A DNA stretch of 62,862 nucleotides from an uncultured Bacteroidales bacterium. Lineage in GTDB: Bacteria; Bacteroidota; Bacteroidia; Bacteroidales; P3. Shown piece by piece: positions 16,657 to 18,522 of the stretch (the first letter of the stretch is position 1; each line of letters starts with the position of its first letter). Where the stretch lies: NCBI GenBank assembly GCA_900319865.1, contig ONQD01000012.1, positions 1 to 62,862 of the forward strand. The letters are read 5' to 3'. The translations under genes and the position numbers were made by a program. Below the pieces are notes generated by a model, which saw only the letters and a program-made list of their open reading frames with translations, ran no database searches and had not been told where the DNA came from.

Positions 16657-17352
16657 TCAGTAGTCGACATCGGGGAAAAGTACTCTGAAGTGTTCAAGTG
16701 CCGGGTTGGATTTCAACATAGTGTCGTACTTGTCGCGAGGATGGTATATCAATGCTTCGTGCTCCACTTGTTCAACCTCCACATGGCAGTTCAGCAGAGG
16801 CTGTCCCGAAACATTACGCAGGAATGTCAACATTTCTATCAGGTGGAGCTTTATTTCCGCCTCATAGAAACTGTTGTTCACCACCACGGCAAAGGTGTTG
16901 TCGCCCTGATAGCGAACAGCGCGGTTTTGCAGTGTCTCCCACAGGTCTGGATTATTCTCCTTCAAATGGTCCAGCAGTTGCGCCCATATCTTTTCCAAAC
17001 TCTCCTGGTTCATCTCCATTGCGGGCTTGGGTTCCTCTTTCTTGGCAGGCTTGTAGATGGGGTCTATTTTCAACGAAATGCCCGACACACGCCGCAGTCC
17101 GCCTTTTACCGCCTCGGCTGCCGTCAGCGATTGGGGCTGCTGCTGGGCTGGCATTCCTGTGTCTTGTTGCGGGGCAACCGCGGGTGCCTGTTCAGCCGCA
17201 TTGGCCGCAGGCTGCGGTTCTCTATCGACAGCCACAGGCTGTTGTGCCGATGCTACCGGTGGGGCTTGAGGATTGGGCGTAGGTGTCTGAGCGGGTGTCA
17301 CCGTTCCGGCCTGGGGTTGGGGTGCGGTAGGCTTGGGTGCCGCCTGAGGCAT
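16657..17352 (-). CDS. dnaX: C-terminal (tau-specific) part of DNA polymerase III gamma/tau, separated by an in-frame TAG
   Basis: This frame is exactly in phase with the upstream dnaX part: the TAG at 17422-17424 is followed by 254 sense codons in the same frame. The listed start is the first ATG (17352); the 23 codons before it are also open. Residues to about 110 form a Pro/Gln/Ala-rich linker. The last ~125 (starting MNQESLEKIWAQLL and ending HFRVLFPDVDY) form a compact alpha/beta domain of the kind found at the end of Bacteroidota DnaX, expected to contact polymerase or helicase. Without readthrough or internal initiation this part would not be joined to the ATPase. The antiporter gene follows after 84 bp. 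Confidence 0.85.
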   Translation of the reverse strand: MPQAAPKPTAPQPQAGTVTPAQTPTPNPQAPPVASAQQPVAVDREPQPAANAAEQAPAVAPQQDTGMPAQQQPQSLTAAEAVKGGLRRVSGISLKIDPIYKPAKKEEPKPAMEMNQESLEKIWAQLLDHLKENNPDLWETLQNRAVRYQGDNTFAVVVNNSFYEAEIKLHLIEMLTFLRNVSGQPLLNCHVEVEQVEHEALIYHPRDKYDTMLKSNPALEHFRVLFPDVDY

Positions 17353-17421
17353 AGCCGGGGCAGGCGCAGTGGGTTGCGCCGTGGGTTGTTTGCCGTGCTC
17401 CGCCTGAGGCGACCTTGCAAT

Positions 17422-18522
17422 CTATGGGTTGTTTACTACCGCGGCCAGTTTCATGAGTGCCACCTCAATAAAGAGCCGTTTGTTCACGGCATCCTTGTAT
17501 CGGTACTCATAGTCGTTGGATATATCAAGATAGCGCAGTAGGAGCGCCAATCCGCACGAAAGTGCCTGTTCGCCAAAACGGCCTTGCTCCTCGGTGCTCA
17601 CTTCCAAAAGTTTATGAGTAGAAGCGTCGAGCGACACAATCAGGTTGCGTAGGTGTTCGCTGAGCCCGGTAATAAAGTGCTGCCCGTCAAAACCTTTGGC
17701 AATCACATCCTGGTACATCAGCAAAGCTTGGGAAATATTACCTTGACGGAAGTAGTCCACCAAAGTGAAATAGTAGTCGGAGTCGAGTTGGTTGAGGTTC
17801 TGGTTGCAGAGCTGGCGGGTCAGGTTGCCCTGCGTGAAACTCACCAGCATGTCAAACATAGAGAGGGCATCGCGCAATCCGCCTTCGGCCTTGCGTGCTA
17901 TGATGAGCAATGCGTCTTCGTCATAGTTCACCCCCTCCCTGTCGGCTATCTTGCGCAGATGATTCACAATGTCCTGAGTCTGTATGCGCTTGAAGTCGAA
18001 CACTTGGCAGCGGGAAAGGATGGTGGGAATTATCTTGTGTTTCTCCGTAGTGGCAAGAATGAACTTGGCATATTCGGGCGGTTCCTCAAGGGTTTTGAGG
18101 AAAGCATTGAATGCGTTGGTCGAGAGCATGTGCACCTCATCGATGATATACACCTTGTAGCGGCCAGTTTGTGGGGGGAAGTAAACCTGCTTCACCAACT
18201 CGCGGATGTCGTCAACACTGTTGTTCGACGCTGCATCGAGCTCGAAAAAGTTCATCGATGTTCCTTGAGCGAAACTGCGACAACTCTCACATTCATTGCA
18301 TGCCTCGGTTTCGGGGGTGAGGTGCTCACAATTGATGGTCTTGGCCAAGATGCGGGCACAAGTGGTCTTGCCCACTCCTCGGGGTCCGCAAAAAAGAAAG
18401 GCCTGTGCCAGTTGATTGGTGCGGATTGCATTCTTGAGTGTGGTGGTGATATGCTCCTGTCCCACCACGCTGTCGAAAGAGAGGGGGCGATACTTACGTG
18501 CTGATACTATGAAGTTTTCCAT
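17422..18522 (-). CDS. dnaX: DNA polymerase III gamma/tau subunit, N-terminal clamp-loader part ending at an in-frame amber codon
   Basis: The clamp-loader ATPase that opens the beta clamp. Start is the ATG at 18522 (MENFIVSARKYRP), the family start, rather than the ATG 27 bases upstream. Walker A GPRGVGKTT is at residues 46-53, followed by a zinc module with four cysteines (about 65-80), the DEVH Walker B, and the SRC sensor/arginine-finger motif. Domains I-III are complete. Translation stops at TAG (17422-17424) after 366 residues, at the end of the collar domain. The reading frame then continues for 254 codons with the expected tau linker and C-terminal domain, giving about 621 residues in all, a normal DnaX length. 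It could be a point mutation, a sequencing or assembly error, or a natural way of making a gamma-like product. Confidence 0.93.
   Translation of the reverse strand: MENFIVSARKYRPLSFDSVVGQEHITTTLKNAIRTNQLAQAFLFCGPRGVGKTTCARILAKTINCEHLTPETEACNECESCRSFAQGTSMNFFELDAASNNSVDDIRELVKQVYFPPQTGRYKVYIIDEVHMLSTNAFNAFLKTLEEPPEYAKFILATTEKHKIIPTILSRCQVFDFKRIQTQDIVNHLRKIADREGVNYDEDALLIIARKAEGGLRDALSMFDMLVSFTQGNLTRQLCNQNLNQLDSDYYFTLVDYFRQGNISQALLMYQDVIAKGFDGQHFITGLSEHLRNLIVSLDASTHKLLEVSTEEQGRFGEQALSCGLALLLRYLDISNDYEYRYKDAVNKRLFIEVALMKLAAVVNNP

Follow-up and report, generated by a model that had tools for sequence, protein, structure and literature searches.

A conserved in-frame UAG and a downstream RNA element suggest programmed readthrough in dnaX of an uncultured Bacteroidales genus

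Among examples of recoding, dnaX is a classic: a single gene gives both gamma and tau. In the window, by which we mean the whole 62,862-nucleotide stretch of DNA analysed here, dnaX is interrupted by an in-frame amber codon, which raises the question of whether the gene is damaged or makes a short and a long product by some other route. The gene lies on the minus strand from 18522 to 16657 and comprises 366 residues, a TAG at 17424-17422, 254 further residues and a terminal TGA; the earlier note that drew attention to this split was exact to the base in its position and in the lengths on both sides. The features discussed below are listed here in window coordinates, where main-type loci are those matching UAGAUWGCNAG (107/113 TAG loci of the genus).

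17422..18522, minus strand: dnaX N-terminal frame, 366 codons plus UAG, encoding a gamma-like product (ATPase, lid, collar)
17425..17427, minus strand: codon before the stop, CCA (Pro), with A or T as last letter in 104/107 main-type loci
17422..17424, minus strand: in-frame UAG, putative recoding site, TAG in 113/114 genus loci
17413..17421, minus strand: conserved spacer AUUGCAAGG, AUWGCNAG in 107/113 TAG loci
17401..17411, minus strand: hairpin, stem CGC 17411-17409, loop CUCAG 17408-17404, stem GCG 17403-17401
17395..17400, minus strand: 3' flank RRRCAY (here GAGCAC), in 103/107 main-type loci
16657..17421, minus strand: tau-specific tail in frame 0, 254 codons plus UGA, with a variable linker and a conserved C-terminal domain

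The in-frame stop and the tail that follows it

The part upstream of the stop contains the delta'-type ATPase domain, DNAX_ATPase_lid and DNA_pol3_gamma3 (residues 247-363) of Pfam. On the NCBIfam dnaX model PRK14971 (614 positions) it matched positions 1-364 (E = 3.4e-196) and the downstream part matched positions 374-607 (E = 4.3e-17), either half by itself scoring under the whole-protein cut-off. Because the two parts occupy successive positions on a single model, they represent one DnaX, in order. Pfam domains and model order both agree with the earlier reading that complete clamp-loader domains precede the stop and a dnaX tail follows it. TAG is an ordinary stop in the window, where it ends 9 of 33 ORFs of at least 150 aa (chosen by length, non-overlapping, dnaX site included). 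On the opposite strand a 283-codon open frame runs across the UAG site (window 16690-17541, plus strand) and is probably a by-product of base composition.

Used as a query against 120 genomes of the genus, which is uncultured and belongs to Bacteroidales, the 366-residue part gave a match at E <= 1e-60 in 113; among the 7/120 without one at this threshold is G029, rated 97% complete, with a best match of 1.7e-4. Comparison of the codon in close relatives, a check that the earlier note had suggested, found the N-terminal, gamma-like frame ending at TAG in 113/114 loci (113 genomes), and UAA or UGA was the junction stop in 0/113. Where the contig end did not cut them, the open frames measured 367-439 aa, except for one of 621 (G031:C222). 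This exception, L037, is an uninterrupted, divergent second dnaX copy of 621 residues; its genome, G031, also carries a copy of the genus type with UAG (L028) and is rated 5% contaminated, and L037 is probably contamination.

The same TAG is present in two public records, L174 (CAMZFW010000113.1, uncultured Bacteroidales bacterium) and L175 (CADAWR010000007.1, uncultured Bacteroidetes bacterium isolate RUG13693). Among the best 80 of at least 592 loci, these two are the ones that belong to the genus; they are metagenome-assembled or come from uncultured bacteria. Since they have the same junctions as G143 and G123, they are not independent evidence. Nor do the locus counts represent independent events, since the species are related. 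From this comparison we conclude that the dnaX TAG is real, neither chance nor local error, because the N-terminal frame ends there in all loci except one.

Beyond the stop, the tail of main-type loci was placed in frame 0 by tblastn in 104/107. Two of the remaining three reach the contig end (L091, L112), and the frame-0 tail of the third (L100) is open over 202 codons but had no tblastn match. Frames 1 and 2 stop within about 120 codons in 101/107 and 99/107 loci, respectively. Median dN/dS was 0.116 for the last 100 tail codons (20/26 pairs usable) and 0.329 for the linker (25/26 pairs usable). Judged by these ratios, the tau-like tail is a protein under purifying selection, and the main-type loci share a conserved same-frame coding extension after an in-frame stop, as in programmed readthrough. 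An AlphaFold model of the last 120 tail residues had a pLDDT of 87.5. Structure comparison gave no match at E <= 0.001, the nearest being SirA/DnaA domain I chains, an E. coli polymerase III complex chain and DciA, and the E. coli tau C-terminal domain stood at rank 28; the likeness of the modelled fold to solved tau is for these reasons weak, as is the support that it gives. When the tail alignment was searched against the sequences of solved structures, the single match was weak and irrelevant.

A conserved RNA element downstream of the stop

The stop context and the 3' RNA element are conserved beyond what the protein level would need. Codon +1 is ATT in 62 and ATA in 45 main-type loci; ATC is unused there, yet it is the commonest Ile codon of the same tails (385/919). 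At codon +2, GCA occupies 100/107 loci, compared with 496/2202 Ala codons in the tails. Codon +3 is AGA or AGG in 106/107, compared with 190/1046 Arg codons of the tails, most of which are CGN; the spacer end of the one other locus is AGU. An A or T stands immediately before UAG in 104/107, compared with 206/749 third positions of codons -2 to -8, and A directly follows the stop in 107/107, as the main-type definition requires. The codon biases at the junction are partly built into this definition, although only 6/113 loci lie outside the main type.

In 103/107 main-type loci one nucleotide separates the spacer from a hairpin whose stem has 3-5 bp, and RRRCAY follows. In the window a single unpaired U (17412) precedes the stem, and C17408 and G17404 can pair too. 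When the 3' side was anchored on RRRCAY without use of pairing, three pairs formed in 103/103 placed loci, built from the stem combinations CGC/GCG (62), GCC/GGC (24), GUC/GGC (12), GCU/GGC (3), GUU/GGC (1) and GUC/GAC (1). Sliding one stem strand by one base left 0/103 pairing; sliding both along the helix left 40 or 55 still paired, in line with a longer stem in such loci. CAY starts 24, 23 or 26 nt after UAG (62, 26 and 15 loci), and since its reading frame changes while its place after the stem stays, the RRRCAY flank is conserved as RNA. Comparison among the loci thus shows an RNA element that is conserved and covarying in sequence.

A parser for the full architecture, pairing included and written after the sequences had been looked at, accepted 103/107 junctions, 4/10700 shuffles and 237/203272 other offsets of the same loci. 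Outside it fell 4/107 loci (L013, L028, L066, L126); by eye, L013 has the stem with GCA replacing RRR, and L028 and L126 look degenerate, without a clear hairpin. Minimum-energy folding gives the hairpin for some relatives but not for the segment from the window itself.

The 12-base motif has a single occurrence in the window's genome. We built an RNA model, R1, on 55 sequences belonging to a single hairpin class; it matched 101/119 genus genomes at E <= 0.1. Its strong matches sit at dnaX; elsewhere, the best site was G034:C19 (E 1.7e-4), and C40 (0.004) was that of the window's genome. The 18 genomes that R1 missed include several carriers of the UAG element with another hairpin class (e.g. 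G036, G108, G118, G128, G134). Four genomes of the +1 type described below matched (E 1e-9 to 1.7e-5), and G011 and G078, also of that type, did not. Because element-bearing genomes were missed, R1 is an insensitive test for the element in other genes. Across 344 genomes of the order, it gave strong matches in two genus members only and weak ones in one other genus (E 5e-4 and 7e-4). A known RNA family was rejected as a candidate, the three matches at E <= 10 all lying far under gathering scores.

Read in the sense direction, the element (window 17395-17418, minus strand) has an apparent likeness to the 3' end of 16S rRNA (AACAAGGUAGCC), seen in L351 (GCAAGGUCGCC versus ACAAGGUAGCC). L351 is a 3703-base G115 locus with a 16S gene, from the 1/9 genomes searched that gave a 16S match. 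Pairing of the spacer with 16S was considered and discarded, the complementary runs in this locus being no longer than those of shuffled motifs.

Readthrough and its alternatives

We propose, with a probability of roughly 0.8, that dnaX of this genus undergoes programmed recoding, in which termination would yield gamma and readthrough of the UAG would yield tau, stimulated by a cis RNA element. The earlier note had raised the stop as another route to short and long DnaX; the relatives support this idea, with readthrough favoured. The proposal builds on what comparison across the genus has established in sequence, namely a conserved UAG, a frame-0 tail under selection and the covarying element downstream; we infer the occurrence and rate of readthrough, the residue inserted at UAG and the way in which the element acts. 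In-frame readthrough would not be universal in the genus, because 6/113 TAG loci have their tail in +1.

Part of the ribosomes would stop at UAG and give a gamma-like clamp-loader subunit. Others would insert an amino acid, perhaps Gln, via a near-cognate tRNA, and go on in frame through the linker and the C-terminal domain to complete tau. Such a tRNA is the likely decoder because RF1 is present in the window's genome and no CUA-anticodon tRNA was found among its 41 tRNA matches; the genome is 92% complete and this tRNA set incomplete, tRNA-Ile GAT being one of those missing. As stimulator we envisage a weak stop context (UAG preceded by A or U and followed by A), the nine-nucleotide spacer, the small hairpin and RRRCAY. 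According to passages of PMC5289835, readthrough is lower where the stop is followed by U, and in E. coli UAG is misread by tRNA-Gln. The element probably slows RF1 or the decoding step, the hairpin sitting near the ribosome's mRNA entry; with UAG in the A site it begins 16 nt downstream of the first P-site codon base. Passages of PMC7282821 describe two cases: dnaX and HIV hairpins at 11-12 nt from that base obstruct the A site, and T4 gene 60 has a short hairpin that blocks RF1. A similar A-site block can only be inferred by analogy here, because the genus hairpin is further from the UAG than the dnaX and HIV hairpins.

Other readings account for parts of these observations. Ribosomes might terminate at UAG and re-initiate at the AUU or AUA that directly follows it in the 107 main-type loci, the tail then being a separate protein whose frame this adjacency would fix too. 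AUU is a rare start codon, as in infC, but AUW is a poor start, and an ATG would be expected under selection for one. AUC, ACC or GCC follows the stop in the six +1-type loci, and in the main type the constraint reaches on to GCNAGR, the hairpin and RRRCAY. No ATG, GTG or TTG is widely common in the tails, the commonest first position, codon 19, being found in 10/107. The internal start that the earlier note had considered loses ground on similar figures, with 60/107 tails lacking ATG in the first 80 codons and the commonest ATG/GTG/TTG position common to 10/107. A separate tail would also lose the link between clamp loader and polymerase by which tau is defined. We regard restart as unlikely. 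Decoding of UAG by a special tRNA, or its reassignment in a pyrrolysine-like manner, would suit an invariant UAG followed by a hairpin, and 3' hairpins have been proposed for some special amino acid insertions. It sits poorly with the presence of RF1, with the lack of a CUA anticodon among the tRNAs found (an incomplete set) and with TAG ending other window ORFs, on which grounds the earlier judgement that reassignment is unlikely stands; the element, moreover, was seen at dnaX only. We consider this reading very unlikely.

Bypassing of the T4 gene 60 type, in which the peptidyl-tRNA would detach ahead of UAG and land in frame further on, is slightly less probable again. GGA, the gene 60 take-off codon, is the most frequent codon before UAG (38/107), and a short hairpin follows. 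That the gene 60 hairpin blocks RF1 (passages of PMC7282821) also speaks for it. Identical landing codons within 60 nt, however, lie in frame 0 in 25/107 loci, compared with 26 in frame 1 and 50 in frame 2, so that matched take-off and landing codons of this type show no frame-0 enrichment and were rejected; the commonest frame-0 landing position occurs in 5 loci, and the codon before UAG is variable. Least probable of all is that only gamma is made, with the tail a relic, or that the stop is a mutation or sequencing error. TAG is one base from CAG, and the earlier note had held a sequencing error or a single CAG-to-TAG change equally possible. That estimate did not survive, since TAG is found in 113/114 genus loci, inside a conserved RNA element, and the sole uninterrupted copy is contamination-like; open tails under purifying selection contradict the relic as well.

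Related dnaX junctions and known recoding systems

Six loci (L034, L035, L092, L096, L116, L127) read NNY AGG CNU AGC UAG and, by eye, carry the same hairpin and RRRCAY. Their tails of 180-217 codons lie in +1, five placed by tblastn and that of L096 by open frame. In family f2 of the same order (55/59 genomes matched), 24 of the best 30 loci have AGGCAA just before the stop and a tail open in +1, the other 6 having a long frame of 534-634 residues. At the conserved AGGCAA junctions of this +1 type among L288-L317, L038 and L321, the stop codons are variable. AGGCAA of f2 may be an undescribed +1 frameshift signal; because f2 too has AGG-C before the stop and a tail in +1, a shift at AGG-C is suggested for the six loci, where the UAG two codons on would end gamma. 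Both f2 and the six loci share gene and place with the main type, and the six also the hairpin and RRRCAY; unlike the main type, their tail is in +1 and the junction is NNN AGG C instead of NNW UAG A. On a tree of 139 rows and 136 columns with many unresolved forks, the six +1 loci correspond to four changes inside the genus, two of them forced by starred (well-supported) branches and some on long branches, so that the figure of four is not firm.

A wider survey covered 95 loci, 15 from order genomes (including L037) and 80 from a named collection (the best 80 of at least 592, with two genus members). One long frame was found in 65, a short frame in 28, and 2 ran to the locus end. The short-frame loci consist of 23 with an A-run of at least 8 at the junction, two with AGG-C (L038 and L192, the latter with a junction identical to that of L302 of f2), the two genus members and L228. 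In the 23/95 A-run loci, which come from Bacteroidota outside the genus and have the slippage-type junction of two-ORF poly-A dnaX (L039-L044, L200, L203, L205, L211, L216, L218, L220, L224, L229, L231, L236, L237, L243-L245, L251, L253), a stop follows the run, and wherever the contig extended far enough the tail was seen to lie in a different frame. Another genus of the same family has an A10 run at the junction in 6/6 loci. If these readings hold, the same place in dnaX would be recoded in at least three ways in the phylum. In L228 (JADILW010000088.1, a metagenome genome of Candidatus Cryptobacteroides avistercoris) the contig end, which has the look of a Nextera adapter sequence, truncates dnaX.

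One RNA element of fixed spacer, tiny hairpin and RRRCAY may thus be a general stimulator of dnaX recoding, mostly of UAG readthrough and, in a few species (perhaps two or more lineages), of a +1 frameshift, the gamma/tau pair being kept while the type of recoding switches. If true, it would amount to programmed readthrough of a stop codon, kept across species, in a bacterial chromosomal gene that is essential. We give this broader reading even odds.

Passages of PMC5009743 name frameshifting, transcriptional slippage and proteolysis as routes to gamma and tau, and those of PMC5009743 and PMC3711429 together describe -1 frameshifting, slippage, proteolysis and a two-ORF poly-A type. We found no report of readthrough in dnaX in the literature searched by full text, a body that most subscription papers lie outside. 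Genus-wide UAG readthrough, if true, would add a further route to gamma and tau and a conserved readthrough signal in a bacterial chromosome. The natural series of readthrough, +1 shift, A-run slippage and no recoding would lend itself to asking why cells keep gamma. Gene callers are likely to annotate such genes as a truncated dnaX and a separate protein.

In E. coli dnaX, a -1 programmed frameshift at A_AAA_AAG yields gamma and standard decoding yields tau. The genus gene is like it in gene and end-of-collar place, in the short gamma and long tau from one mRNA (here predicted) and in the 3' hairpin. It differs in that recoding would give the long form and would take place at a UAG; the reading frame would stay the same, and no slippery run precedes the stop. 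AAAAAAG occurs within -60..+40 of the stop in 1/113 loci (L014, after UAG), and the gamma stop is in frame 0, not -1; an E. coli-type -1 frameshift was rejected, as no slippery A_AAA_AAG with a -1 gamma stop was found.

Thermus dnaX uses transcriptional slippage. With two-ORF poly-A dnaX the genus gene would share tau through recoding and a gamma stop in frame 0. Unlike Thermus and poly-A dnaX, it has no A-run of at least 8 within 60 nt before the stop (113 loci), and the main-type tail is in the same frame. An A8 run within -60..+40 occurs in 1/113 loci (L014, located after UAG), and poly-A slippage was rejected for the genus, where no junction A8 run with the tail in another frame was seen. 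Passages of Antonov et al. 2013 (PMC3711429) describe two-ORF poly-A dnaX, in which tau needs recoding and the gamma stop is in frame 0, among 17 two-ORF genes of slippage type, 12 with A-runs; this reversed arrangement, with tau by recoding, also appears in passages of the review PMC5009743.

In MuLV gag-pol, as passages of PMC5009743 describe it, UAG readthrough with a 3' pseudoknot gives the long product. The genus dnaX resembles this system in its in-frame UAG, its 3' structure and a long product by readthrough, which here is predicted. The MuLV spacer is 8 nt. MuLV is a retrovirus that uses eukaryotic ribosomes and a pseudoknot, whereas the genus dnaX lies on a bacterial chromosome, its hairpin is very small and its spacer differs.
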